Positions 16,416 to 32,055 of a stretch of 32,055 bases of DNA are shown in pieces; position 1 is the first letter of the stretch; each line of letters starts with the position of its first letter. Location: the NCBI GenBank assembly GCA_017504125.1, contig JAFVRT010000139.1:1-32055 (forward strand), given 5' to 3'. The translations under genes and the position numbers were made by a program. The notes beneath the pieces are model-generated. The model ran no database searches and was not told where the DNA came from. It saw only the letters and a program-made list of their open reading frames with translations. This stretch comes from Lentisphaeria bacterium (GTDB taxonomy: Bacteria > Verrucomicrobiota > Lentisphaeria > Victivallales > Victivallaceae).

Positions 16416-17837
16416 TTATTTTCCGGAAAATCCGCAGGAACTCAAACGCGGCAGCAGAGGACGGAAAAGGGAACAAACTGTCTGCCAGCAGATCTGGATC
16501 CCTTCATTCTGAATCCCGATCGTCCATTTGTCTTTGAAGGTTCCGTCAAGGTGCATCAGAGAAAGTTCCAGAGTATTTTCATCTTTCCACGCGGCACTCC
16601 CGGCCACGGGGTGGGGTCTGGAGTCCTGAAATTGAATGCGGCTGTTTCTGAAACTTCCGAATCCGGCCCGGATAACTTCGGTACCGCGGGGTGTTTTCAG
16701 TTCCAGCAGTACGCCTTCGCGGTCAGCAACGAGTGAACCGCTTTCGATCCCGGCAGAATTGTGATTGAGGGCAAAGGTGCAATCGATCATTCGTGAAATA
16801 TTGCCTTTTTCCGCAGGTAAAATTTCCAGAGTACGGCACCGGGATTCCAAAGCACTCCAGGCCCCGTTATTTTCAGCAAGCGGCTGATTTTCCAGTACCG
16901 GAAGCAGTTTTTCCCACAGGATATTCAGAACCCGATCCATTCCGCTCATGGCGGAATTGACTGCGACAGCCATATCGTACACAGGAAGCATAATGGCATA
17001 CTGTCCGCAGGCACCGTCCCCGCGGAATCCGTGTCTGGAACACCAGAACTGATAGCCGTATCCGCAACTCCAGTCCGGCAGAGCATTCATGGAGTTGTCA
17101 GCGTGAGGTTTCACAGCATCTTCCAGATAGTCAGCCGGCATGATCCGGATCCCGTTCCACATTCCTTTATTCAGCAGCATCAGGGAAAATTTGGCAATAT
17201 CCATGGTCGTCAGGTGAAGTCCGAAGCCGCTGACATTGGTTCCGGCCGGACAGCACTCCCATACTCCGGGAGTGATCCCCATGGGCTCAAAAAGCCGCGG
17301 CATAAGATATTCCCGTACATTGACTCCGGTGACCCGGCGTATGACAGCCCCCAGCATGTAAGTACCGAGGGTATTATAAGCGAAATGAGTACCCGGTTCG
17401 TATTCCAGCGGAGAACTCAAAAATCCCCGTACCCAATTATTCTCCTTATCATTTCTGGCATAAGGGAAAGCACAATCCTTGTGTCCGCTCCGCATGGTCA
17501 GCAGATCACGCAAGGTAACTTTGAGCATCTTTTCATCAGTAACGCAAGAACGGTATTCAGGGAAAAAACCGATAAGTTTATCATTGACAGACAACAGTTT
17601 TTCACTTTGTGCAAGTCCGACTGCACACGAAGTAAAACTTTTACTCAATGACCAGAGTGCCTGAGGCATATCTTTATCAAAGGGTTTCCAGTATGCTTCG
17701 GTGATGATATTGCCATGACGCATGATGATAATGCTCTTCATGTAGTCCAATTTATCAAAATCATTGAGTATATCAACGATAACTTCATAAGGAACACCTT
17801 GTGACTCCGGAGTATTCCGCGGGATTTCATAACTCAT
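16416..17837 (-). CDS. serine beta-lactamase-fold hydrolase (COG1680)
   Basis: 473-aa protein of the class C beta-lactamase/esterase superfamily. SxxK nucleophile motif SLSK at residues 63-66; the tyrosine motif is AYNTLGTYMLG (Tyr154), the YN(S/T) form common in esterase-like COG1680 members. About 130 C-terminal residues beyond the catalytic domain form a beta-rich extension. No signal peptide, so cytosolic as annotated. More likely an esterase, amidase or D-aminopeptidase-like enzyme than a resistance lactamase. Divergent from the TPR gene at 17994; convergent with prepilin 1. A perfect palindrome at 16418-16431 overlaps its 3' end. Confidence 0.88.
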   Translation of the reverse strand: MSYEIPRNTPESQGVPYEVIVDILNDFDKLDYMKSIIIMRHGNIITEAYWKPFDKDMPQALWSLSKSFTSCAVGLAQSEKLLSVNDKLIGFFPEYRSCVTDEKMLKVTLRDLLTMRSGHKDCAFPYARNDKENNWVRGFLSSPLEYEPGTHFAYNTLGTYMLGAVIRRVTGVNVREYLMPRLFEPMGITPGVWECCPAGTNVSGFGLHLTTMDIAKFSLMLLNKGMWNGIRIMPADYLEDAVKPHADNSMNALPDWSCGYGYQFWCSRHGFRGDGACGQYAIMLPVYDMAVAVNSAMSGMDRVLNILWEKLLPVLENQPLAENNGAWSALESRCRTLEILPAEKGNISRMIDCTFALNHNSAGIESGSLVADREGVLLELKTPRGTEVIRAGFGSFRNSRIQFQDSRPHPVAGSAAWKDENTLELSLMHLDGTFKDKWTIGIQNEGIQICWQTVCSLFRPLLPRLSSCGFSGK

Positions 17838-18768: not shown

Positions 18769-19695
18769 TCAACCTTCCATGACATGAAGCTCCCGGAGTT
18801 CCCGGGAGCGTATTTTTTTCATGATCTCAAAGGCGTGAGGTTCAAGATAGTCATCTTTGCGGTCAGACAATCCCTGTTCAGCAAGTTCTTCAATGATCGC
18901 AGAACAGATTTTTTCGATCACAGCACTTTTGTTTTCTGTACCTGAAGTTCCGGTCAGCAGAAATTCCAAATCGTCTTTCATCCAGCTGAAGCGCGGCAGT
19001 TCCTTCATCGCTCTGAAACACCATTTATAGTAAGGCGCAAAACTGAAATTCAGCAGAAATACAAGTGAAACGGTACTTTTGACAAATTCAGTCAGAGCAA
19101 GGTATGCGGCTCCCGGTTCTCCATGTTTCAGACAGCGAGTGAAGTTGTATTGTCCGCTTTGAGCCATGCTTATAACTCTGGCTGCGATTTTTTTCAACCT
19201 GACATCTTCAGGCATATCGTGGAGTATGGCATTGCGTATCCGGCTGAAAAGTCCCATATCGTCCCGGAATATCCGGCCGTTGACCGCCTCGGCAAAGGCA
19301 TATTCCGGTGTATAGAGCCACTCCTGCCAGTTTTGAGGAACTCCGGGGATCCCGATATGGCGGCGGTAGAAATCACTTATTCTGACCACGCCATGTTCAG
19401 AAGGCCCTAATTTACTTCCGGCGACTTTCAGTTCCGGAAAAGAACTCCTGACAAGTTTTTCATAAAGTCTTCCCAGAGCAAAACCGTAACGGGCTTCATC
19501 TTCATCGCTCACCCATAACGAAACTCCCACTCTGAAGTCATGATCGCGGGAAATATCATCGTCAAAGCCGAAACACTCCGATCCCCTGCCCGCCAGACCG
19601 GCAGCAATGCGCTGCACCAGTTCCGGGAATTCCGCTTCCAACGCCGGAGCCACGGTGGCGCGATACCATTTTTCCGCTTCTTCAAGCCCCGGCAT
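18769..19695 (-). CDS. DUF4037 nucleotidyltransferase-like protein
   Basis: 308-aa cytosolic protein. The N-terminal motif GRGSECFGFDDDISRDHDF (residues 37-54) is the signature of DUF4037: a nucleotidyltransferase-type Gly-Ser followed by acidic residues that would bind metal. A predominantly helical C-terminal half follows (about 140-308). Substrate unknown; a small-molecule or protein nucleotidyltransferase is the best guess. It overlaps the upstream TPR gene by 14 bases and is last in the carbohydrate operon. The start has GGAG 6 bases upstream. Its last codons contain the intrinsic terminator used by the converging gene. Confidence 0.82.
   Translation of the reverse strand: MPGLEEAEKWYRATVAPALEAEFPELVQRIAAGLAGRGSECFGFDDDISRDHDFRVGVSLWVSDEDEARYGFALGRLYEKLVRSSFPELKVAGSKLGPSEHGVVRISDFYRRHIGIPGVPQNWQEWLYTPEYAFAEAVNGRIFRDDMGLFSRIRNAILHDMPEDVRLKKIAARVISMAQSGQYNFTRCLKHGEPGAAYLALTEFVKSTVSLVFLLNFSFAPYYKWCFRAMKELPRFSWMKDDLEFLLTGTSGTENKSAVIEKICSAIIEELAEQGLSDRKDDYLEPHAFEIMKKIRSRELRELHVMEG
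18789..18819 (+). terminator. intrinsic terminator for the TPR gene, inside the DUF4037 coding end
   Basis: Plus strand: stem GCTCCCGG (18789-18796) with CCGGGAGC (18802-18809), 5-base loop, then GTA and seven T (18813-18819). It lies about 110 bases past the TPR stop, within the antisense of the DUF4037 C-terminus (codons for Arg-Ser-Arg-Glu-Leu-Arg-Glu-Leu). Confidence 0.8.
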
Positions 19696-20428
19696 AAAAA
19701 TCTCCTGCTCTGGTTTTCAATATCTTTTCATCTTCCGGATATCCCAATTCTCCAAAGGCAGCAGCACATTTACTGCAAGTATGGGCATAATATCCGTCCC
19801 GCGGTACTCCGCTGTCATTAAAACACTCCATTGCACACTCCAGCGACACCTTTATCATAGGATCTGCGGGGTCGTTTGCAGCATAAAGCTGTGCAAGATT
19901 CACCAGAGTAACCGCCTGATCCATGATCTGACCGCAGTTTTTCAGGATATCAAGTGCTTCAAGGTAATGATTCTCGGCTTTTTTGATATCTCCATTGGCG
20001 GCAAAAGCTGCCGCCATATTATTGAAAAGTCCGGCAAAACGGCGGTCTGAAGGAGCAAGTTCCTGTCTGTAACATGCCAAAGCCTCCTGATAATACTCCA
20101 ATGCTTCATTCACAATACCGAATGATTGAAGTGCAGTTGCTCCGTTTATCAGGATCGTTCCGGCGGCAACTTTACCGATATTGAGTTCCCGCATCAAAGC
20201 AAAGCCTTCCCGGACTGCTTCAATACCCCGATCATGGTCTTTCATCATGCGGTAATGGCCCATAAGTTCGCTCAAAACAGTAAGTTCTGCAGCCTTATCA
20301 CCGCATAAAGCGGCTTCATTGCGCCAAAAACGCAAATGCTCTCCCAGCGCATCCATTTTTCCGCTGTTGAAAAGACGGTCGCATCCGGCTATGATTTCTT
20401 CAACAGAAATTTGTTTACTTGAGATCAT
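19682..20428 (-). CDS. cytosolic TPR protein paired with DUF4037
   Basis: 248-aa soluble protein made largely of tetratricopeptide repeats, without signal peptide. Clear repeat helices include ALEYYQEALACYRQ, LFNNMAAAFAANGDIKKAENHYLEALDIL and TLVNLAQLYAANDP. The C-terminus has a His-Thr-Cys-Ser-Lys-Cys segment followed by another repeat. It overlaps the sialate esterase stop by 4 bases (ATGA, 20425-20428) and the DUF4037 start by 14 bases, so all three are probably translated in sequence. Probably a protein-binding partner of the DUF4037 protein; inferred from coupling. Confidence 0.8.
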   Translation of the reverse strand: MISSKQISVEEIIAGCDRLFNSGKMDALGEHLRFWRNEAALCGDKAAELTVLSELMGHYRMMKDHDRGIEAVREGFALMRELNIGKVAAGTILINGATALQSFGIVNEALEYYQEALACYRQELAPSDRRFAGLFNNMAAAFAANGDIKKAENHYLEALDILKNCGQIMDQAVTLVNLAQLYAANDPADPMIKVSLECAMECFNDSGVPRDGYYAHTCSKCAAAFGELGYPEDEKILKTRAGDFYAGA

Positions 20429-22593
20429 TCAAACTCGGCATAAACTTTGAGGAGTGCTTTACTGTAATTTTTGCTGCTTCCGGCAAAAGTCCAGTCAGGA
20501 TATCCATTGGGATTGTTTCCGATACCGATATCCTTTACCGGCTTAAAAAAATTGTTATAAGCAAAAACCGTCTGCTTTTCCATGAAATTATGGATCTGCA
20601 TGGAACCGTATCCGGGGTGAGCTGCGGAATTGCCGCTATCTCCGAAATCATACCGTTTACTGTCGGCACCGGGAATATTTTTCCGGTTGTCCATAGCATA
20701 ATTACCGTTCCAGAATTCGATATTTCCTTCTCTGAAGGAGCCGTTTTTGATCCCCGGTACATTGCTCAATACGGTCAAAGCCTTTACTTTGCAGTCAAAA
20801 AATGCTTTTGCTTTTTCCGGCACTCCGATAAGTCCGGCATCGGGCGTGAAACTTTCCATCGCCGCAGCCACCCATTGTGCACCGCCTTTTTTCGGCGTAA
20901 GATGAACGATATAAAGTACTTTTTTCACTTTGCCCTTGCAAGTTCCACTCTTGTCGGCGGCATACTTGATTTTTTTATCTGCACCGGGAATACTCAACAT
21001 GTCGTGACTGTAAACCAATTTCGCCTGTGGCGCAAGACGGCTCACGAGAACTTCGTCAAGGGTCTTGCCGCAGCGGAACGCTCCCAAGGGCAGTCCTGCT
21101 TCGTTGAAGATCGCGCCTTTGACAGTCTGATGCCACAGATAACGCATCTGCACCGGTTCAGCGACTTTCTCACAGGAAACGATGATCTTTTTTCCGTCCA
21201 AAACAGCAGTTGCCGGGAAAAACCTGTTATCGACACCGGCTGCTTCAAAGCCTTTTAAAACTTTGGGTGCGAGCCATTTTTCCACATTGCGGAACTCAAG
21301 AATGAATTTTTTCCCTTCGATCTTCCATGAAGCCAGCTGCGGAGAATCAGCCTTGACTGGTTTACCATAGGAATGCCTGAGAGCCAGCAGCGAGAGGCGT
21401 TTCCCTACAGTTTTCTTATCATGAGGGTGAATATCACCCCAATCCCCGACATCGTTGATCACCGCCATTTTCACATTGCTGCCCTGAGAGTTGGCGAAAC
21501 GCTCCTGGACTTCCCACATTTCCGGCAGCCGCAGGGGATTTCCGCCATATCTGAAAGGAGCCAGCTGGACGAAGTAGAATGCCATATCCGGATTGTTGAA
21601 CACTTTACGCCACCCTTTGAGCAATGCCTGCATCTTGTAACCGTAAAGTCCGTCGCCGAGATTGCTGCATCCCTGATACCAGATAGCTCCGCGGAACGCA
21701 AAGGGCACAAAGGGAAAGATCATTCGGTTGTAAAGTACTGTAGGATTCTGATATCTGCTCCACGGAACCAGCTCCTCCGGATAAGCCGGTGCCGGCGGCA
21801 GCGGCAGTCCGGCTTTCAGAGCTTTTTTGAATTCAACCAGCCATTTTTCCTGTTTCTGCAGCACATTTGCGCTGAATTTTTTGTATTCTTCCGAACCGGG
21901 GATCTTGGCATAGACACTATCGGCAAATTTTTTCAGTTCCGGTACCATACGATACCCTTCAGCGGGGATCCAGGGTTCGATTCTTGTGCCGCCCCAGTGC
22001 GAAGCAATCAATCCCACAGGAACACCCAAAACTTTACGGAGTTCCTGTCCGAAATAAAAGGCTGTCGCAGAAAATGAAAGACCGTTGTCTGCAGTCAAAG
22101 GGCTCCATTTCATCACAAAATCACGGCGGGGATAATGTGACCAGCCGTAAGGTGACATCTTCACGATGCGGATCAGCGGATCAGCTCCGGACTTCACATG
22201 TTTATCGCCGCCAGCAGCACGCCAGCGGGGATTGGAAGTCCACATGGGCATTTCCATATTGGACTGTCCGCTGCAGAGCCACACTTCACCTACAAGAACA
22301 TTGCTGACCGTGATACTGTTGTTTTTTCCGCTTATGATCATCGTCCGGCCTTTGGAGTCGGCTTTCATCGGCGCAAGAACAGCATGCCAGCAGCCTTTGG
22401 CATCTGCTTTGGCAGACACACTCTGTCCGGCAAATTTCACCGTTACATCTTCGCCGGGAGCAGCAACTCCCCACACCGGCACATTACGGTCGCGCTGCAG
22501 CACCATATTGTTACTGAAAACCGCAGCCGGAACAACTTTGCCATGAAGAAAACTGCAGACACACAACAATGTTGTAAAAAATACTTTTTTCAC
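20425..22593 (-). CDS. exported sialate O-acetylesterase
   Basis: 722-aa secreted SGNH-type esterase that removes O-acetyl groups from sialic acids or other acetylated sugars. Signal peptide MKKVFFTTLLCVCSFLHG, then an N-terminal beta domain and the nucleophile motif WLCSGQSNMEMP (Ser111). The acid/base Asp-X-X-His pair is in GDIHPHDKK. The core is flanked by a C-terminal region of about 190 residues (from about 530) not needed for the basic family, ending in GYGSMQIHNF and NNPNGYPDWTFAGS, probably a beta-sandwich or second lectin-like domain. Start codon is GTG with AAGGAG upstream, 17 bases after the GH95 stop. Exported although its GH95 neighbour is not. Confidence 0.9.
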   Translation of the reverse strand: MKKVFFTTLLCVCSFLHGKVVPAAVFSNNMVLQRDRNVPVWGVAAPGEDVTVKFAGQSVSAKADAKGCWHAVLAPMKADSKGRTMIISGKNNSITVSNVLVGEVWLCSGQSNMEMPMWTSNPRWRAAGGDKHVKSGADPLIRIVKMSPYGWSHYPRRDFVMKWSPLTADNGLSFSATAFYFGQELRKVLGVPVGLIASHWGGTRIEPWIPAEGYRMVPELKKFADSVYAKIPGSEEYKKFSANVLQKQEKWLVEFKKALKAGLPLPPAPAYPEELVPWSRYQNPTVLYNRMIFPFVPFAFRGAIWYQGCSNLGDGLYGYKMQALLKGWRKVFNNPDMAFYFVQLAPFRYGGNPLRLPEMWEVQERFANSQGSNVKMAVINDVGDWGDIHPHDKKTVGKRLSLLALRHSYGKPVKADSPQLASWKIEGKKFILEFRNVEKWLAPKVLKGFEAAGVDNRFFPATAVLDGKKIIVSCEKVAEPVQMRYLWHQTVKGAIFNEAGLPLGAFRCGKTLDEVLVSRLAPQAKLVYSHDMLSIPGADKKIKYAADKSGTCKGKVKKVLYIVHLTPKKGGAQWVAAAMESFTPDAGLIGVPEKAKAFFDCKVKALTVLSNVPGIKNGSFREGNIEFWNGNYAMDNRKNIPGADSKRYDFGDSGNSAAHPGYGSMQIHNFMEKQTVFAYNNFFKPVKDIGIGNNPNGYPDWTFAGSSKNYSKALLKVYAEFE

Positions 22594-22610
22594 CTTAAAA
22601 CTCCTTTTCT

Positions 22611-24830
22611 TCAGAGGGAAACTGTTTCACCGGCTTCGAGAGAAAACTCCCAGATATTATCCTTTACTGTTCCGGCGGCAGGCTGCGGCCAGCTGCGGGC
22701 AGGATCAAGCTGAATGCGGCAAACACCTTTGCGGCTTGCTGTGACTGACATGGAAACTCCGCGCCCTTTGACAAACTCCGCGCTGACTCTGAAACCGCCG
22801 GGAGCAGGCATATCTTTGACTTCGGCATTGCGCCAGTGAGCAGGCACACCGTCGCCGATGTGAAGCACTCCGCAGCAATCGTAAAGGAACATTTCCTGAA
22901 TTGCGGAAACGGCCCCCATGCCGCCGTCGATCTGCATGACTTCGCCCCGCTGCCAGTCGCCCAGAAGTGTAAATCCGGAAAATGCGGCATCGTGAAGCGT
23001 TCCGCCGCCCTTGTTGGTAAAAAGTTTACTGAAGATCTCAAGCAGCATTTCAGCATTTTCAGGCTGTTTGAAATGGCTGTTCAACTGGGCTGCCCATGCC
23101 ATACTCCAGCCGGACCAGTCCCCCATACCGTCAACGATCCACCGCTGTCTGGTCTGAGTAACCAGATCACGCCATTCCGGAGCTTCCGGATCGATAGTAT
23201 TGAAGGGGCAGATACATGCCAGATGTGAATGATGACGGTGGCTGAACTCCAGAGCCTGTCCTTTCCAGAGAGCTATCTCTTGCTTTTCCGGGTCGAGGAA
23301 TTCAGAAACTTCGCCTTTGACAACTGTGACTTCAGGCAATCTTGCCGCCACATCGAGCCATGCCGGATCTTTTTCTTCACCAAGCATTTCAGCTGCTTTG
23401 CAAAGATTCCGCACCAGGCGGTGGAACGCCGCCAGCTGAAAACTTGCATTGACACCCCAGGCATCAAATCTTGCACCACGGTATTCCGGAGAAACTGTAA
23501 CGGGCAGACAGAGTTTACCGTCTTCATCTTCAGACATCATGGCGGCGTAAACTTTGAATGTACCCTTCATAAAGCCAAATACGAAATCTTTCAGAAACTC
23601 CATATCGCCGGAGTAATCGCAGTAATCGAACATCATCTGAGAAGTCCACGCGGAACAGGCATGATCTATGGCTCCGGTCCAGAAACCTCCCATAAAAGTT
23701 CCCCGGTCATCAACGGCGTGAGGCATTAAAATACCATTTTCAACTCCGACAAAGTGAAATGCGTTCTGCTGTAACTTTTCTTTCCATGAACGCACCATGT
23801 TAAAGAGCGGCATCAGGTTTTGGAAAAGATTCGCCCGGAGTGCCGGTCCGTAACACATCTGCACATTGATATTGAAGTGATAATCTGCCGACCACGGCGG
23901 GAAACGGTCATCTTCGATCCACGGGCCCTGCAAACCGGCCGGAACTCCGGCAGGATCACTCATGGAAATAAACTTGTAAATACCGAACCAGTACATTTCA
24001 GTAAGTACAGGATTGTCTACCTCAAGGTATGTAACTCCGGAATAAGCCTTTTGCCAGTATACGGCATTGTCAGCCTTCAAAGAATCCCAATTTCCGGGAG
24101 CAAGATCTCCCAAAGCCTTTATTTCTTCATCTCCGCGGGCAAATGCAGCGGTAAAAGTATCGCCGTCCTGACGGAATGCGAGAGCAAAATCGGGGTCATC
24201 AGGCATGATCTGGTGAAATCCTCTGACAGAACCGGATTCAAAGTGTTCCGGTTCGGGGAATGAACACGCATCCAACGCTCCTCTGCCCAAATTATGCTGA
24301 GCAGGAGTTCCGGCATTCATTCCCCGTTCTTCGCTCAAGTGCCAGGAGTCTGCCCATTGTGCATTTACGATATCGGCACCGCGGAACATCAGTTTTTTCT
24401 GATCGCTTCTGCCCAACAGAAACTCCACACTTTTTTCGGAACCGCCCGATGTATACACGATCCGGAGTGCGGCATTTTCCAATTCAAGTTCGTAGCGCAG
24501 CAATTCACAGCCGTCGGCAAGTTCCAGTTTCAAGCGTCCGAGCGGCACGATCTGGGGACGGCGGGGAAACCTCTCCGGAAAATCCGGAAAAGCAAATATC
24601 GCACGCAATCTTTTTTCATCACTCTGCTCAAGGGACTCCCGGATATCGGCGAAGTTTATTTTGCTGCTCCACGGCAGTCCGCCGCGGTGATCCCACACAG
24701 AATTGGAACCGAAAGATATGTTGATATTTTTGCCGCCTCCCCACACCAGAACACCGAGAAAACTGTTGCCTAACGGAGCTCCGCATTGGATGCGCGGAAG
24801 GGGAAATTCTTTGATTATTACCGGTTTCAT
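22611..24830 (-). CDS. GH95 family glycoside hydrolase (alpha-L-fucosidase-like)
   Basis: 739-aa cytosolic inverting glycosidase, GH95 (alpha-1,2-L-fucosidases, some alpha-L-galactosidases). N-terminal beta-sandwich begins APLGNSFLGVLVWGGG; the (alpha/alpha)6 barrel carries the catalytic region WSADYHFNINVQM with the Asn-X-Asn pair (320, 322), the acid Glu449 in VSPEYRG, and Asp635 in MQIDGGMG. HRHHSHL (531-537) is another family landmark. All expected catalytic residues are present. No signal peptide, so substrates must be imported oligosaccharides. Start: ATG 24830 with AAGGA 11 bases upstream; the longer TTG frame (24917) would start inside the promoter. Confidence 0.88.
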   Translation of the reverse strand: MKPVIIKEFPLPRIQCGAPLGNSFLGVLVWGGGKNINISFGSNSVWDHRGGLPWSSKINFADIRESLEQSDEKRLRAIFAFPDFPERFPRRPQIVPLGRLKLELADGCELLRYELELENAALRIVYTSGGSEKSVEFLLGRSDQKKLMFRGADIVNAQWADSWHLSEERGMNAGTPAQHNLGRGALDACSFPEPEHFESGSVRGFHQIMPDDPDFALAFRQDGDTFTAAFARGDEEIKALGDLAPGNWDSLKADNAVYWQKAYSGVTYLEVDNPVLTEMYWFGIYKFISMSDPAGVPAGLQGPWIEDDRFPPWSADYHFNINVQMCYGPALRANLFQNLMPLFNMVRSWKEKLQQNAFHFVGVENGILMPHAVDDRGTFMGGFWTGAIDHACSAWTSQMMFDYCDYSGDMEFLKDFVFGFMKGTFKVYAAMMSEDEDGKLCLPVTVSPEYRGARFDAWGVNASFQLAAFHRLVRNLCKAAEMLGEEKDPAWLDVAARLPEVTVVKGEVSEFLDPEKQEIALWKGQALEFSHRHHSHLACICPFNTIDPEAPEWRDLVTQTRQRWIVDGMGDWSGWSMAWAAQLNSHFKQPENAEMLLEIFSKLFTNKGGGTLHDAAFSGFTLLGDWQRGEVMQIDGGMGAVSAIQEMFLYDCCGVLHIGDGVPAHWRNAEVKDMPAPGGFRVSAEFVKGRGVSMSVTASRKGVCRIQLDPARSWPQPAAGTVKDNIWEFSLEAGETVSL

Positions 24831-24888
24831 AAACAGCAAGATTCCTTTTTTTTGAGGGTAAAAAATCCCAAATCTCTGACTTTGAAAT

Positions 24889-24917
24889 AATATATACGCA
24901 GCTCCGGACTTTTTCAA
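24889..24917 (-). promoter_or_regulatory. internal promoter of the GH95 gene with flanking inverted repeat
   Basis: Minus strand: -35 TTGAAA (24917-24912), 17-base spacer, -10 TATATT (24894-24889). An 8-bp perfect inverted repeat (ATACGCAG 24894-24901, CTGCGTAT 24926-24933) brackets the -35 box, a candidate operator. The inferred leader is about 50 bases. Confidence 0.65.
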
Positions 24918-24949
24918 GTACAGAACTGCGTATTACCTGATTTCTGCTT

Positions 24950-25978
24950 TCAGGGCAGAAAAAATTCTTTGAACTCATTGCAGCACGGATTGCCGTCTGC
25001 GACTCCAACGATGCCTTTTTCCGGAAGACAATACATGGCCCAAACGGTGATATCTCTGCTCAACGGATCGCCGTGATGACATGGTGCATTGGGAAGTGAA
25101 TGATCGCTCAATATGGCTTTCAGCTGTTCCAGATTTTCCGGAACCGGTTTCGAGGCGATAAATTCTCCTCTGGAACGGATAAAAGGTTTCCGTTCCGGGA
25201 TCCTGGCATCGGCATTTTCCAATCCCGGAGTTTCGTAAAGATTGGTCGACCAGCAGAAATCACTGTTGCGGTTCCGCTCCATTATCACCGGTACTGCGGC
25301 ATCTATGAAGGTACATTCACCGCTCCGGTCTGCGGCAGCGATGGAAAATCCCTTGCCGGTCAACGGAAACTCCGGCGCATGAAGTCCACGCAAAAGCTCT
25401 CCGAGTGTACGGCAGCTTTTCATAAGTTCATAAAGGCGGATCCTGATATCGATGCGTCTTCCGTAACGGGGGAACTTCGATCCTACAGAACCGTGAGTAT
25501 TGGCAAGTCCTTCGCTGTTCATCATATCAAGTCCGCTGATCCAGCCGGCATAAGTGACCTGAATAAAGGGGATCCCTTTATCCGGAACACAACGGCGGAT
25601 AACAAAGGGAAATTCCTCCCCGATACCGGCATCGTTGTTTTTGGCAACGATCACCCCGTCAGGGGAACGGCGCAGCAAAAGCGGAGTACAATGTTCACAT
25701 GGAAATTCAAAGGTATCAAGCACATTGAGAAAGAATATGAATTCCTCCGGCACATCTGCACCGCGGGCTATGGCCTGGAGTTCGGTCAGCGAGTCGGGTG
25801 CAAAAAATTTCAGAGCCTCCGCGGCGTTGCCTGCAAAAGAACTTTTTACCGGAAACTTCCGCAGATATTCCTGCCACAACTCACGGCAGAATTTTATTTC
25901 ATCTCTGGCACATTCGCCGTACTGCAGTCCCATTTCTTCCGGAGTGCCGCGGCATTCGATGAATTTCAAGGGTTTCAT
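24950..25978 (-). CDS. C45-family autoproteolytic acyltransferase/hydrolase (copy B)
   Basis: 342-aa Ntn-hydrolase of peptidase family C45 (acyl-CoA:6-aminopenicillanate acyltransferase fold). In this family, self-cleavage exposes an N-terminal cysteine that attacks an amide bond. The nucleophile is Cys97 in EHCTPLLLRRSPDGVIVAKN; NDAG and GFSIAAAD are further conserved pieces. No signal peptide. Start set at ATG 25978 in a 4-base overlap with copy A. The substrate is unknown; in this glycan locus an N-acyl sugar or acylated amino compound is plausible. Residues 123-164 are identical to 120-161 of copy A. Confidence 0.85.
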   Translation of the reverse strand: MKPLKFIECRGTPEEMGLQYGECARDEIKFCRELWQEYLRKFPVKSSFAGNAAEALKFFAPDSLTELQAIARGADVPEEFIFFLNVLDTFEFPCEHCTPLLLRRSPDGVIVAKNNDAGIGEEFPFVIRRCVPDKGIPFIQVTYAGWISGLDMMNSEGLANTHGSVGSKFPRYGRRIDIRIRLYELMKSCRTLGELLRGLHAPEFPLTGKGFSIAAADRSGECTFIDAAVPVIMERNRNSDFCWSTNLYETPGLENADARIPERKPFIRSRGEFIASKPVPENLEQLKAILSDHSLPNAPCHHGDPLSRDITVWAMYCLPEKGIVGVADGNPCCNEFKEFFLP

Positions 25979-26988
25979 ATGGAATATTCCGTAAATGGAT
26001 TGCAGCATGGATTATTGTCGGCAACTCCCACGATGCCTTTTTCAGGCAGACAATACATCGACCAGGCGGTCACGGCATTGGCTTCTTTGCCGTGGCGGCA
26101 GGGAGCATGAGGCACGGAGTGATCGCTCAATATGGCTTTGATGCCTCCAAGATCCACCGGAGCCGGACATTCTGCGATATAGCGGTTACGGGCCCGGTAA
26201 AAAGGTTTCAGTTCCACAGGACGCATATCGGCATTTTCCATACCGGGAGTTTCATAAATATTGGTCGACCATGAAAACTCCTTGTTTCTGTCGCGCACCA
26301 CCACATTAGGTACTGCGGCATCAATAAATGCACATTCTCCCCTGCTGTCGCCGACAGCGATGGAAAATCCTTTGCCGGTCAGGGGGAAATCCGGAGCCTG
26401 AAGTCCGTAGATCAACTGGTCGATATTGCGGCATTGTTTCATCAGTTCATAGATCCGCAGCCGGATATCTATGCGCCGCTGCGGCCGGGGGAAAATGGAG
26501 CCTGCAGAACCGTGAGTATTGGCAAGCCCTTCGCTGTTCATCATGTCAAGTCCGCTGATCCAGCCGGCGTAAGTTACCTGAATAAACGGGATACCCTTAT
26601 CCGGAACGCAGCGGCGGATGACAAAAGGGAATTTTTCCTCCTCTCCGGCATCGTTGTTTTTGGCAACGATGATGCCGTCGGGAGAATGACGGAGCATCAA
26701 GGGAGTACACCGTTCCACTTCCGGCCCGAAAGTGTCCACATAATTTATGGCAAGAATAAAAGAAAATGCCACACCGGCTCCGTCGGCAACTCCTTTGAGC
26801 TCAGCAAGCACATCTGGCGCATAACGCTCCAATGCGGCACACGCCTCCTGCATAAAATAGGGGCGTTGAGGATATTTTCTGAAATGCGGAGTCCACAATT
26901 CCTCCGCATATCTTATTTCGCTGCGGGCACTTTCACCGTACTGACGGCCCATTTCTGCTGCGCTTCCGCGGCATTCAACAAATTTCAT
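25975..26988 (-). CDS. C45-family autoproteolytic acyltransferase/hydrolase (copy A)
   Basis: 337-aa paralogue of the next gene, same Ntn-hydrolase fold. Nucleophile Cys94 in ERCTPLMLRHSPDGIIVAKN. Starts MKFVECRGSAAEMGRQYGE, closely matching copy B's MKPLKFIECRGTPEEMGLQYGE, so the two are a tandem duplication. N-terminal 90 residues have diverged clearly, whereas the middle is almost unchanged. The start overlaps the barrel-protein stop by 14 bases, and the stop overlaps copy B's start by 4. Copies that have separated at the substrate-facing N-terminal part may act on different acyl groups. Confidence 0.85.
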   Translation of the reverse strand: MKFVECRGSAAEMGRQYGESARSEIRYAEELWTPHFRKYPQRPYFMQEACAALERYAPDVLAELKGVADGAGVAFSFILAINYVDTFGPEVERCTPLMLRHSPDGIIVAKNNDAGEEEKFPFVIRRCVPDKGIPFIQVTYAGWISGLDMMNSEGLANTHGSAGSIFPRPQRRIDIRLRIYELMKQCRNIDQLIYGLQAPDFPLTGKGFSIAVGDSRGECAFIDAAVPNVVVRDRNKEFSWSTNIYETPGMENADMRPVELKPFYRARNRYIAECPAPVDLGGIKAILSDHSVPHAPCRHGKEANAVTAWSMYCLPEKGIVGVADNNPCCNPFTEYSI

Positions 26989-28165
26989 TTTTCAGATGTT
27001 CCTTTTTCCGCATCAATGTTTTGGCTGCGGCCTGAATAAAAAATATCGATCCCAGATCCCGCATCAGGAACGGAATGTTATCGCTTCCGTCCGGATAACA
27101 GACCTTTTCCAGGATCGCGCCTTTAAGCGAAGTATCACCGGGAGCGGTCAACTGCATCATCATACAGAAATCTTCTGTTTTTTCAATAAGTTTCAGTACA
27201 GAATCATCGCCGGTTTCGTGATAATATGTTTCAAACATTACAGCGGCACATGCACTTCCGCTTGCAGCATGTCCGAAAGAAGGGGTGGAAAAGTCCGTAT
27301 ATGTATCCCGGAAAAGTCCGCCGTCCCTTCTGATCGCCTGCCGGTACCAGTCAACAGCTCTTTTGAACACCGCAAAAAAGCGTTCATCTCCGGTTTCGTG
27401 AAAAAGTTCCAACATCGGCAATCCCCACCAGTAGGCATGTCTGGGGTGGATATTGCCGTTTTTTTCATTGCATGGAATATATTTTATCCAGTTTCCGGCG
27501 GGATTTTCTTCTTTCAGCAAGTTTTCAGCCACAGCCAGAGCGATGTTGCGGAACTTTTCATTTCCGCTGCGCCGCCAGCCTTTGAGAAACACGGCATCAT
27601 CCAGCAGCGGCCGGGTCTGCGAACCGGGATTATCCATAAGAAACTGCCGTTTTTCGGGAGAATAGATATCGAGAAATTTCCCAAGATCCTCCTGCCATGC
27701 ATGAGTTGTCACCCACTCCAACGCTCTGACGGCAGCATCTTCGTACCGCTTGTTGCCGACGGCATCAGAGAGCATGAAAAGACCGTCGAGAGCTTCAAGT
27801 ATGGCGGAAGTGTTGACAGAGCCTGCCTCCACCTCATAAGCCTTTATCAATCCGGCATCCGCCCCGGAAGACTCCTGCTGTGCAAGGATGAATTCCGCTC
27901 CTGAAACAGCATATTCCAGATATTTTTTTTCCTCCAGAGCTTCTGCAGCCATGACAAAGGCCTTTACTGCCTGTCCGGTATGCCAGATGGGGCAGAAACT
28001 CTCCCATTTCTTTTCCCGTGAGAGATATTCGCCGCGGATCGCTCCGTTCCAGAAGGAATATCCGAAAGCACGGCCCAGTTCACCGACTGGCGTGTTGTCT
28101 TTCACCATTCCGGGACCGGAAAGCCATTCAAGGGCAAGAAGCAAAGATTCTTCCAAGGTTCTCAT
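26975..28165 (-). CDS. (alpha/alpha)-barrel glycosidase-like protein
   Basis: 396-aa cytosolic protein with repeated helical hairpins typical of six-hairpin glycosidases and epimerases. Landmarks are a His in CPIWHTGQAVKAF, a His-Ala-Tyr-Trp-Trp segment, and FGHAASGSACAAVMFETYYHETGD. Repeats such as YLEYAVSGAEFILAQQE and FFAVFKRAVDWYRQAIR recur about every 50 residues. I cannot assign a GH family; uronate/unsaturated-glucuronyl hydrolase-like folds (GH88/GH105) or an N-acylglucosamine 2-epimerase-like role are possible. Starts in a 4-base overlap with the DUF4838 gene and ends inside C45 copy A. Confidence 0.6.
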   Translation of the reverse strand: MRTLEESLLLALEWLSGPGMVKDNTPVGELGRAFGYSFWNGAIRGEYLSREKKWESFCPIWHTGQAVKAFVMAAEALEEKKYLEYAVSGAEFILAQQESSGADAGLIKAYEVEAGSVNTSAILEALDGLFMLSDAVGNKRYEDAAVRALEWVTTHAWQEDLGKFLDIYSPEKRQFLMDNPGSQTRPLLDDAVFLKGWRRSGNEKFRNIALAVAENLLKEENPAGNWIKYIPCNEKNGNIHPRHAYWWGLPMLELFHETGDERFFAVFKRAVDWYRQAIRRDGGLFRDTYTDFSTPSFGHAASGSACAAVMFETYYHETGDDSVLKLIEKTEDFCMMMQLTAPGDTSLKGAILEKVCYPDGSDNIPFLMRDLGSIFFIQAAAKTLMRKKEHLKNEIC

Positions 28166-31080
28166 TTTTCCTTACATTCCCTCAGAGATACATGGTCGAT
28201 CCAGACACATCCGCCCCTATTCGGACGGCAGAAGTAAACCACTCCGGGGTGTTTTTTGCCGGCATCAGAAGCGGTTTTGAAGCGGAACTCAAGATGCTGG
28301 AACTTCATTGTGCCGGTATATCCGGGTGAGGGCAGATAGCGCACGGAGTTTTTGACTGTGAAGCCTCCGTCATCCACACGGCATGAAAATGCGCCATGCT
28401 GTTTTCTGTCTGCGGGATTGACGATATTTTCCAGTTTGACAAAATACCGCAGCACATACCAGGTATCCGGTTTGAGTTTGTTCAGCCGGTGGACCAAATG
28501 AATATTTTTACCGCCGTCCAATTTTATCGATCTGCCGCCGGTACGGTAGATCCTGGTATCGCTTTGCAGATTACCTCCCCAGTTGAACCAGCTGTTCCGG
28601 ACTCTGCGGGGATCTTTGATAAAATCACCATTGGTCAGCAGATTGCCTTTTTCCGGATCTTCGGCAGTCAGTTGCCCGAAGTTGGCAATATCTCCGAAGC
28701 TCTGCCCCAGACAACTCCATGTGTAAAGTTTGGCTTTTTTATCAGTCTGTTTAAAAACACGATGCCGGGTAAAGTTGGCAACAATGTCATTTTTCTTTGC
28801 ATTGACAGCAGCTTTGGGGATACGGACTTCTGCGATCCACCGTTTTCCGTCTTTGTCGATACGGGTCTTGACTTCGGCTTTACCGTCGAATTTCCAATCT
28901 CCGTGATGTTTGGCAGGAATGGTTTTCAAATCCCCCACATCTCCGGAAACATTTACCATGAACTGGTAGAAACTTTCCCGTTTGCCGTCGGTATCAAGAT
29001 AGATCTCAATGGCGTTATCGCTCCAGATCCGGTTGTGATCCCGTTTTCTTCTGGTGATCCGCATATCATCGATACGGGGTTCGGAACATTCAAACAGGAA
29101 GTAATAATTTTTATCGGTCTGGAACATTTTCACTACGGTAGGAACATCGGTTTCATCATTTTTGAGATCCACAAGGTGAACGCCCTGAAGTTTTTTCCAT
29201 ACCGCTTTGCCGGAGTCGGCATCGATCTTGAAGCCGATGTCTTCTTTCATGACAGGCAGATGAGCTTTCCAGTTTTCCCGTCCTGCACTGCGGCGTTCAA
29301 ATTCGGCCCCCAGTTTAAGCATGGGATCGAGGAAATAACGGCGGATATAACGGACTCTTTCAGCAAAGATGCCCCGTTCTTTCTTCTCTGCTTTATCCAA
29401 AAGTGCAGCCAGACGGGCGCGCTCCCCGGCAGAGTATATATTGTTCCAGAGTTTATGTTCCGAAGGCAGCACGACTTTGGGACCCAGAGCAGTTTCTTCA
29501 CGGTGTGCGGCAAGATCTTTGACCCAATGGTGCTCAAGGGAGTCGAAGAAATCCTTCATTTCGGGAGCTCCCTTGCCGAACATCAGACGGTGGTGTTCGT
29601 TGAGAATGGCTTCTGCATCGCATTTGTGATCCCAGAGGACTTTGCCGAACATATAATAACTCAGGTAGCCGAAAATCCAGCAGTCATTTTCGCCCTCATA
29701 AAAAGCTCCGAAACTGTCAGTATAGTTGCGGCTGTAAAAAGCTGCCATGGCACGGGGAGTGGGGTTGGCGACACGGGGCAGCTGGACCGTATACTTGGTG
29801 GGATAGTTCCACATATACAGTTTGGCTCCAAGTTTCTTGCTCCATGCTTTGATTTTTCCGGTTTCTTCGGCTTTGGCGATGGGGTCAAGTTCGCTCCAGG
29901 GGCCGTGAACAGCCAGCATTACCACCATGTTTTTGGGGATATTCACCGCATCAGGGATCTCTTTGTAAGGGGTATATGCCATGGAGGTCAGGTAACCGGG
30001 AACACCTTCTTTAAGCATGCGGTTGGCAAGATCGACTTTCCATTGCCAGATCCAGTTGCTGATACGCTTCGGGTCATTCGATCCGAAAACTTTCCAGCAT
30101 TCTTTGCAGCGGCAGAAATACATTCCGTCATTGAACATGATGTTGAAAAAAGGCTTGCGCTGCGTGTACTGCCATGCGGAAATATTCCGGCTTTTGGCAG
30201 GTTTGCCCTGCATCACGGCGATGATATCTTCAAAGATCACATCTTTCAACTTGGGCGCACTCAGGCACAACTGGCCATACTTATTGGGCGAAAAATAAAG
30301 ACCGTTGGTTCCGTCCATGCGTTTGCCGTTCTGGTGCAGAGCGAAAAACTCCGGATTGCTTTTGGCAAAGCGTTTGACCAGATCGATGAAGGCAAGACCG
30401 TGGCAATTGGGAAGATGATTGGTGGACATCCTGATATGCTTTTCGTGGAGCAGCAGATCTTTTTTCCGGTCTTTGCCGGTGTACCACGATTCCAATTCCG
30501 GATCCACCGGCCATATATTGCAATGCCGCCAAACCATCTTGCGGTGCTGATGATCGGGGCGATCGGTGATATCGATCTCAGGGATGCTCCAGTTTTTCAG
30601 CGGCGGAGTGATCGTTCCCAGGCGACCGGGGAAATAGAAGCGGACTCCGGCGAAACGCTCAAGGAAGTCGTAAACACCGTAAAGGACGCCCCTTCCTTCG
30701 ATACTTCCGGTAATGGTCAGTTTGCCGGGAGAAGTTTTGATGATGAATCCGTCCCGGTCGAGCTTCTGCGAGGCGGCGGCGGTTTTCAATTCGATAACAA
30801 AGGGCTTAGTGCTTTGAGCAACAGGAACAAGTTTGCTTCCGGTCTGCTGCGAAAGGACAGCGCACAATTCTTTTGCGGCTTCCTTCACGATTGCCGGAGA
30901 TTTTTTGGGGATCACTACATCGAAATCGCATTTCCCCCCGGCAACAAGTTTATAAGAATTTTTTTTGCCGATGATGGTTTTCCGGGGCGACTGCGGCGAC
31001 ATGGAAAATTGCATGGCGGGTTCTGCGGCAAAGGCAGCAGTACACAGCACTGCCAATGTTGACAATAAAAGTTTTTTCAT
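28162..31080 (-). CDS. exported DUF4838 protein with carbohydrate-binding-like domains
   Basis: 972-aa secreted protein, first gene of the glycan run. Signal peptide ending ...CTAAFAA (about residue 18). Residues about 50-155 look like the alpha-glucuronidase (GH67) N-terminal domain; about 175-480 is the DUF4838 TIM-barrel-like part, with a Cys-rich FCRCKECW segment near 320. Residues about 640-800 resemble a CBM9/DOMON-type sandwich (SDNAIEIYLDTDG), and about 815-970 a CBM4/9-like module starting NLLTNGDF. Activity of DUF4838 proteins is unproved, though they are thought to act on polysaccharides. A palindrome lies upstream (31103-31116). AAGGA precedes the ATG by about 9 bases. Confidence 0.85.
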   Translation of the reverse strand: MKKLLLSTLAVLCTAAFAAEPAMQFSMSPQSPRKTIIGKKNSYKLVAGGKCDFDVVIPKKSPAIVKEAAKELCAVLSQQTGSKLVPVAQSTKPFVIELKTAAASQKLDRDGFIIKTSPGKLTITGSIEGRGVLYGVYDFLERFAGVRFYFPGRLGTITPPLKNWSIPEIDITDRPDHQHRKMVWRHCNIWPVDPELESWYTGKDRKKDLLLHEKHIRMSTNHLPNCHGLAFIDLVKRFAKSNPEFFALHQNGKRMDGTNGLYFSPNKYGQLCLSAPKLKDVIFEDIIAVMQGKPAKSRNISAWQYTQRKPFFNIMFNDGMYFCRCKECWKVFGSNDPKRISNWIWQWKVDLANRMLKEGVPGYLTSMAYTPYKEIPDAVNIPKNMVVMLAVHGPWSELDPIAKAEETGKIKAWSKKLGAKLYMWNYPTKYTVQLPRVANPTPRAMAAFYSRNYTDSFGAFYEGENDCWIFGYLSYYMFGKVLWDHKCDAEAILNEHHRLMFGKGAPEMKDFFDSLEHHWVKDLAAHREETALGPKVVLPSEHKLWNNIYSAGERARLAALLDKAEKKERGIFAERVRYIRRYFLDPMLKLGAEFERRSAGRENWKAHLPVMKEDIGFKIDADSGKAVWKKLQGVHLVDLKNDETDVPTVVKMFQTDKNYYFLFECSEPRIDDMRITRRKRDHNRIWSDNAIEIYLDTDGKRESFYQFMVNVSGDVGDLKTIPAKHHGDWKFDGKAEVKTRIDKDGKRWIAEVRIPKAAVNAKKNDIVANFTRHRVFKQTDKKAKLYTWSCLGQSFGDIANFGQLTAEDPEKGNLLTNGDFIKDPRRVRNSWFNWGGNLQSDTRIYRTGGRSIKLDGGKNIHLVHRLNKLKPDTWYVLRYFVKLENIVNPADRKQHGAFSCRVDDGGFTVKNSVRYLPSPGYTGTMKFQHLEFRFKTASDAGKKHPGVVYFCRPNRGGCVWIDHVSLRECKEK

Positions 31081-31175: not shown

Positions 31176-32055
31176 TCACCATGATTCAACTCCGCCGGTG
31201 AGGACCCAAAACGAATTTCTGAATGCATTAGTATAGTACCCCTGTCTTGGCACTATGGCCCGTTTGAGCGTTTGCACATGGCCATCTATAAATGTGAAAT
31301 TAGCTTGTCCGGGTCCGCTGGCAACAACCACACTTTCCTCAACTTTTTCATCGCCGCCGTGAGCAAAAACTATCCGACCGAGAGAAGGATTATTGACTCC
31401 GTCAATGGTCGGTTTTTCAAATTGACTTTCGCCGAAAATACAGCATTTTGACGGTTTTTTCACTTTGGTTATCTTGCACAAATTCCTGAATTGTCCATCC
31501 TGCAGCATAATATTGATCCCGATCCCGTAAGCATCATTCTGATTGGCAGTAGCCAGAAACGATTTGTGGGACCGTTTGGGGCATGCCAGAGGACTGCGGC
31601 CAAGAGTTTTGTGTTCTCCTCCGATAACGACAGGCATATCATGGCCTACATAAGGAGCAATCATTCCGCTTTTGCTGAAACCTTCAGAAGGACGCGGCTT
31701 GCTCAATCCGGAAAACCATGATTTGTTGGAGTTATTGCTGCTGCCGCCGTTCCAATAAGGAGGCAGCATATCATCATTATCAGCCACATAAAAGAGCAAT
31801 CCCTTGCCAAGAGTTCCGAAGTTACCGGCACACTTGGTGAGATTGGCACGGTCGCGTGCCTGCTGCAATGCGGGAAGAAGCATGGCGGCAAGTATGGCGA
31901 TGATCGCTATTACGACCAATAGCTCGATCAGCGTGAACGCTGATCGAATGAAGCACGGCTCCGCCGTGTGAAGCGCAGCGTTGCTGCATGAAGCGTTTGC
32001 CTGCGGCAAACATGAAGCACTTGCTTTGCAAGTATGAAGCGGCGTATTTTTGTGA
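31176..32055 (-). CDS. prepilin-like exported protein with H-Xn-DG tail (2), 5' partial
   Basis: At least 293 codons, open to the right edge with no credible start; only a TTG (32009) lies in frame, without a ribosome-binding site, so the true start is probably outside. The leader is long, Cys/Ala/Ser/His-rich and ends IRSA, then the helix [16 protein letters not shown]. Ala rather than Gly precedes the Phe at the expected cleavage site, a tolerated but less common choice. The globular part aligns in outline with prepilin 1 ([16 protein letters not shown] vs [16 protein letters not shown]) and ends with an IDGHV motif. The leader-coding DNA is made of the hairpin array at 31925-32040. Upstream of the glycan operon on the same strand. 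Confidence 0.8.
31925..32040. repeat. array of five perfect hairpins separated by ATGAAGC
   Basis: Plus-strand order: hairpin 1, 9-bp stem, loop TGAA (31925-31946); ATGAAGC; hairpin 2 ACGGC-TCC-GCCGT (31955-31967); GTGAAGC; hairpin 3 GCAGC-GTT-GCTGC (31975-31987); ATGAAGC; hairpin 4 GTTTGCC-TGC-GGCAAAC (31995-32011); ATGAAGC; hairpin 5 ACTTGC-TTT-GCAAGT (32019-32033); ATGAAGC (32034-32040). Stems differ in sequence and length (5-9 bp) but are perfect; the spacer varies only once. The array codes for the prepilin 2 leader on the minus strand and may continue past the window. Confidence 0.9.

Follow-up and report, generated by a model that had tools for sequence, protein, structure and literature searches.

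Do eight neighbouring genes that lie on one strand, several of them with families known from carbohydrate breakdown, form one pathway? The question is raised by eight consecutive minus-strand open reading frames (ORFs; 18769-31080) of a Lentisphaeria bacterium of the family Victivallaceae (assembly GCA_017504125.1, contig JAFVRT010000139.1). The window analysed is this entire contig (32,055 nt; C141 in our set), which ends inside a prepilin-like gene with its upstream side unseen, and belongs to a draft genome (G000) of 2.2 Mb in 390 contigs that is 76.5% complete. A preliminary description had read the run, listed as DUF4838, barrel, two C45, GH95, sialate esterase, TPR and DUF4037 genes, as a single pathway. 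All of these ORFs were found, and Pfam and NCBIfam profile matches agree with the named families except for the esterase label. The single pathway did not survive comparison: no related locus that was read showed the full gene order, and the run splits into three modules. A lack of conserved gene order had been named beforehand as the outcome that would speak against one pathway, and only the barrel and C45 genes, with a secreted giant protein and a prepilin-like gene, were conserved. In all likelihood the run is not one pathway and represents a mosaic on one strand, with the C45-barrel unit as module 1, GH95 and the esterase as module 2, and TPR-DUF4037 as module 3.

Linkage of C45 and barrel genes in related genomes

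The conserved pair of module 1 consists of a gene for a cytosolic protein with a predicted (alpha/alpha)6 barrel of AGE/GH88-like fold (26975..28165, minus strand) and a gene for a C45 autoproteolytic N-terminal nucleophile (Ntn) amidohydrolase or acyltransferase, which is present in the window as copy A (C45A; 25975..26988, minus strand; NF040521, E 2.1e-36) and its tandem duplicate, copy B (C45B; 24950..25978, minus strand, from an internal ATG; the longest ORF begins at 26008). The 137 genomes of the order were searched with C45A, and a phylum-wide profile search was run in addition. Close homologues (at least 42% identity) were present in 12 other genomes of the 137, and the phylum-wide search added G323 and G184; G074 holds a fragmented copy. 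C45 adjoins the barrel gene or lies within ~5 kb of it in 13/13 assessable genomes and, where the two are not adjacent, nothing but a prepilin-like gene and the gene for one giant secreted protein stands between them. The pair is kept even in G184 (L089), which belongs to another family of the same phylum. Three genomes (G101, G094 and G323) were not assessable as C45 lies at a contig end, with the G101 contig too short; in both G094 and G323 the C45 contig runs out in a prepilin leader, and the giant protein c4 and the barrel gene end another contig, as expected if the gene order were the same. Under a simple chance model, which counts one miss and ignores the shared ancestry of the genomes, the C45-barrel linkage has a probability of P ~2e-25. 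None of the C45 or barrel loci read holds GH95, the esterase, TPR or DUF4037.

The secreted partner of the pair is a DUF4838 protein in the window, G105 and G109, c4 (~1,350 aa, with a Laminin_G_3 match) in G086, G095, G102 and G112, and a GH123-like protein in G004. Regulators stand beside the unit in several relatives, of the AraC type in G105, G109, G094, G095 and G086, of the GntR type in G071 and G004, and of the IclR type in G042. Families with amino-sugar enzymes among their members also recur near it, including GH20-like (L043, L085) and GH123-like (L049, L094) proteins and a PIG-L deacetylase (L085). The core is best read as a locus type that recurs in Lentisphaeria/Victivallales and is made up of a prepilin-like gene, a giant secreted putative glycosidase, the barrel and C45, often with a local regulator in relatives. 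The loci of barrel relatives come from Lentisphaeria (goat rumen, sheep colon) and Victivallaceae. Beside the second barrel locus of G105 (L085:6369-10845), genes for a PIG-L deacetylase, a GFO/IDH oxidoreductase, a xylose-isomerase-like protein and a GH20-like protein lie on one strand.

Spacing and signal peptides in the run

Measured between longest ORFs in DUF4838 to DUF4037 order, the spacings are -4, -14, -34, +32, +17, -4 and -14 nt, and the overlap of C45A and C45B shrinks from 34 nt to 4 nt when the C45B ATG at 25978 is used. Most junctions had been described as 4- or 14-base overlaps; before GH95 there is probably a gap in place of an overlap. The longest GH95 ORF begins at TTG 24917; the most likely start, judged from sequence, is ATG 24830, since the same FPLPRI stretch comes directly after the start in relatives, and this start leaves a gap of 119 nt after C45B, exactly at the end of module 1. 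A promoter-like match lies in this gap and is not above chance. Signal-peptide-like N-termini, read from sequence, were seen on the DUF4838 protein and the esterase and on none of the C45, barrel and GH95 proteins, in agreement with the secreted and cytosolic groups described before.

Predicted folds of the C45 and barrel proteins

The AlphaFold model of C45A (predicted local distance difference test score, pLDDT, 92) matched isopenicillin N acyltransferase (2x1c) over its whole length as the top Foldseek result (E 2.7e-20, template modelling (TM) score 0.85). The window copies score 125.9 and 101.9 bits against the NCBIfam C45 proenzyme model (cut-off 85), and all 14 aligned members match the C45 profile at E <= 0.001. 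The residues C94-T95 are invariant in the 14 sequences and align with the Cys-Thr cleavage site of 2x1d. C45 therefore shares with isopenicillin N acyltransferase (2x1c/2x1d) the whole-length fold, an N-terminal match (E 1.7e-15) and the cleavage site, and differs from it in having ~16% identity in the structure match and in being bacterial, cytosolic and tied to a barrel enzyme. The two window copies are 64-65% identical and are grouped together in the tree (support 100/99); among the sequences sampled, this duplication is confined to the present lineage. In C45B the Cys is kept, and His replaces a nearly invariant Arg (PCRHG to PCHHG). The copies (24950-26988) share an identical block of 42 residues; gene conversion between them was considered and rejected, as there was no excess at synonymous sites (permutation p 0.24) and the longest identical nucleotide run gave p 0.06. 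Close plasmid-borne relatives of C45 were likewise discarded, only distant ones (<33% identity) being found.

For the barrel protein (AlphaFold model, pLDDT 88) the best Foldseek matches were 2-epimerases, isomerases and unsaturated glucuronyl hydrolases (TM ~0.6-0.7), and GH76 was matched too; the match to D-mannose isomerase had an E of 1.1e-8, and cellobiose 2-epimerases gave TM ~0.63-0.70. The modelled fold is assigned to the AGE/GH88/GH76 superfold, which would fit an epimerase and a hydrolase alike. Pfam GH88 is matched by residues 48-158 only (26.9 bits, cut-off 26.6) and not over the full length; weak matches to GH88 or Pec_lyase were seen in 6 of 10 barrel relatives. An alignment of 10 sequences showed many invariant W/H/D/R residues. 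The protein thus shares the (alpha/alpha)6 fold with AGE 2-epimerases and isomerases and with GH88 (TM ~0.6-0.7), and differs from them in its 11-14% identity, in having no AGE Pfam match and in its own invariant residues, as a distinct family.

Prepilin-like genes, DUF4838 and uptake

The first visible gene of module 1 is the prepilin-like gene cut by the contig end (31176..32054, minus strand; Pfam N_methyl, E 2.6e-6). It shares a strand with DUF4838, stands 95 nt upstream of it and was missing from the earlier gene list. It is followed by the gene for a secreted DUF4838 protein with a CBM9-like domain (28162..31080, minus strand; DUF4838 E 2.1e-27, CBM9_1 E 2.4e-5), a putative glycoside hydrolase with weak GH67N and NAGLU_N matches. 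Genome G000 holds 32 DUF4838 genes or fragments and 37 N_methyl matches, and a prepilin-like gene stands directly upstream of 10 of the 32 on the same strand (expected, 0.7); in relatives, such a gene also lies beside the C45-barrel unit. Among the papers searched, one mentions DUF4838 and none names it together with Lentisphaer- names. The prepilin leader in the window (31843-32011) matches the end of another contig of this genome, C228 (L002), at 90.5% identity over 169 nt, and it was probably this shared leader DNA that broke the assembly at the contig end. Prepilin-like genes with long leaders that carry a recurring 41-residue unit were seen in L085 (4569-5648), L014, L019, L084 and L095, and the L085 leader holds more than one such unit in tandem.

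The absence of SusC/D, of a transporter and of a local regulator had been remarked upon, and none of these is in the run. No TonB plug domain was found in G000, at its stated completeness, and of the 78 genomes in the family 1 has the domain above its cut-off; the lack of SusC/D is uninformative for this locus because it is family-wide. Two weak ABC-type sugar-binding proteins were found in G000, and no clear GPH transporter was found in this three-quarters complete genome. That the locus has no regulator does not follow, since the contig ends inside the prepilin gene and relatives carry regulators. The combination had also been called unlike a standard polysaccharide utilisation locus (PUL), and it is indeed not a Bacteroidetes-type PUL. 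With SusC/D-type PULs and carbohydrate-active enzyme (CAZyme) gene clusters it shares neighbouring genes for secreted and for cytosolic carbohydrate enzymes, as well as regulators in relatives; it differs in lacking SusC/D and a TonB plug, in having a prepilin-like gene at the head of the unit and in having a C45 amidohydrolase as a core part. In Planctomycetes, pili-like fibres at crateriform structures bind dextran, which also gets into the periplasm (PMC5394234), and that prepilin-like proteins play a comparable part in uptake here is only a guess by analogy.

The GH95 and esterase genes

Module 2 begins with the gene for a cytosolic GH95 protein, a probable alpha-L-fucosidase (22611..24830, minus strand; GH95 E 2.1e-57), whose catalytic domain scores 195.4 bits (cut-off 27) and whose motifs DYHxNINVQM, SPE and QIDG align with FucOB and other GH95 structures. 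It shares the catalytic domain, the Asn pair, the general acid Glu and the Asp motifs with the alpha-1,2-L-fucosidases FucOB, AfcA and XacAfc95, and with FucOB and AfcA also the His before the Asn pair; it differs from these enzymes in having no signal peptide and in N- and C-terminal domains that match Pfam only below the cut-off. The His/Thr position was discarded as proof of fucosidase over L-galactosidase specificity, which it does not settle (PMC8245568). GH95 homologues are present in 82 of the 137 genomes, and in C45-holding genomes eight GH95 loci were read, all of them free of C45 and of the barrel.

The second gene encodes a secreted SGNH-type O-acetylesterase (20425..22593, minus strand; SASA-type, E 6.7e-12). 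The label sialate esterase given to it earlier is doubtful, as its best solved relatives are O-acetylesterases of the CE20 type (phmmer, E ~1e-69 to 9h4u, 7kmm and 9ega). With 7kmm, which is XacXaeA, the founder of CE20, it shares both catalytic SGNH halves and the flanking regions (E 4e-69), with GQSNM and DIHP kept. It differs from XacXaeA in that the X448 insert is mostly absent (66 residues, against ~186 in 7kmm) and in ~210 additional C-terminal residues (20425-21070) that match neither solved esterases nor Pfam. Because most of the insert is missing, the protein is classed from its sequence as CE20-like, not as a CE20 member. XacXaeA and the GH95 enzyme XacAfc95 (7kmq) come from one Xanthomonas xyloglucan locus (PMC8245568), and for GH95 and the esterase a role on plant xyloglucan side chains would appear at least as good as one on sialate or mucin.

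The TPR and DUF4037 genes

Module 3 comprises the genes for a TPR protein (19682..20428, minus strand; TPR_12, E 1.7e-12) and a DUF4037 nucleotidyltransferase-like protein (18769..19695, minus strand; DUF4037, E 2.5e-33). DUF4037 occurs as one copy each in 45 of the 137 genomes, and the TPR gene directly precedes it in all 19 of the related loci read, one of which is cut by a contig end. The flanks read at these 19 loci hold no other gene of the window and no glycan genes. DUF4037 has been linked to proteins of the aminoglycoside-nucleotidyltransferase type and is occasionally fused to TPRs (PMC3710099). The pair is an independent neighbour with no sign of a glycan role.

Proposed function and alternatives

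From the module boundaries, the C45-barrel linkage, the predicted folds and the family-level assignments, as observed or computed above, we infer a substrate, an order of steps, an uptake route and co-transcription. The secreted enzyme would cut a glycan with N-acyl amino sugars or amide-substituted acids, and the oligosaccharides would be taken up by non-TonB routes whose genes lie elsewhere. Inside the cell, the fragment would be hydrolysed or epimerised by the cytosolic barrel enzyme, and C45, having cleaved itself before Cys94, would take off an acyl group or an amide. The two module 2 enzymes, GH95 and the CE20-like esterase, would have been added in this lineage and would strip fucose and O-acetyl groups. 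The mosaic together with this core chemistry is the overall explanation towards which we lean, by a little; the C45-barrel chemistry taken by itself is tentative and rather less than an even bet. Several points weigh against it. The chance model for the linkage treats the genomes as unrelated; the barrel is not bound to C45 and turns up in ~10 loci where none is visible (several of these truncated at a contig end), there too with putative glycosidases, prepilin-like genes and regulators nearby; the secreted partner varies, with no similarity detected between c4 and DUF4838 and no solved relatives of c4 found by sequence; promoter and terminator scans of the run were not above shuffled sequence and lend no support from transcription; and the C45 family acts on diverse amides or transfers acyl groups, with the substrate here only inferred.

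Four other explanations were weighed. The location of all eight genes on one strand, with short gaps or overlaps, would suit one locus for a fucosylated, acetylated host glycan (such as mucin or sialoglycan), as would the fit of GH95 and an O-acetylesterase to decorated glycans and the ruminant-gut origin of relatives; with the order conserved in no related locus read, TPR-DUF4037 widespread without glycan genes, the 119-nt gap and its promoter-like match before GH95, and an esterase that resembles CE20, this is improbable. That nothing joins the genes except packing, as short-gap neighbours in a compact 2.2-Mb draft genome with no shared function, is more improbable still: it agrees with a full order that no other genome shows at the loci read and with modules 2 and 3 being independent of module 1 elsewhere, and leaves the C45-barrel linkage in 13/13 genomes unexplained.

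The remaining two each concern one module. GH95 and the esterase may act on fucosylated, O-acetylated plant xyloglucan side chains, the target of XacAfc95 and XacXaeA in Xanthomonas, independently of the C45-barrel unit, and we regard this as a serious possibility that nevertheless falls short of probable. The hosts of relatives eat plants, and 7kmm and 7kmq, from the one xyloglucan locus (PMC8245568), are among the best solved relatives of both proteins; the backbone enzymes GH74, GH31 and GH35, however, are absent from the window, the X448 insert is missing, the window GH95 has no signal peptide, and the GH95-esterase pair was not found in relatives, save one with a different esterase (L117/L149). 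It is unlikely that the C45-barrel pair handles a small amide (an acyl amino acid, a peptide or a bile-acid-like compound) in place of a glycan, its location reflecting regulation or chance. Such a role would accord with secreted partners that differ between loci, and the C45/Ntn relatives acid ceramidase, NAAA and bile salt hydrolases cleave non-sugar amides; against it stand the barrel fold, which is that of sugar enzymes, and the recurrence of the unit beside putative glycosidases.

In our preferred reading, the mosaic with a C45-barrel core, what is new is the conserved core itself, a two-enzyme unit for which folds are predicted and a nucleophile is conserved, in bacteria whose metabolism of glycans has received little study. 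If the proposed chemistry is true, it places a C45 Ntn enzyme in carbohydrate breakdown. The absence of SusC/D characterises the family and is not peculiar to this locus. A more speculative extension, which we consider somewhat doubtful, is an undescribed Lentisphaeria glycan locus type, in which C45 and a new (alpha/alpha)6 family would be the constant cytosolic core for N-acyl- or amide-substituted polysaccharide, and interchangeable giant secreted glycosidases with a prepilin-like protein would replace SusC/D.

Outside the run, the window also holds a gene for a serine hydrolase of the beta-lactamase family (16416-17837), for which 3-succinylated cholic acid synthase is the best match in NCBIfam, at E 6.9e-71 and well short of the equivalog cut-off.

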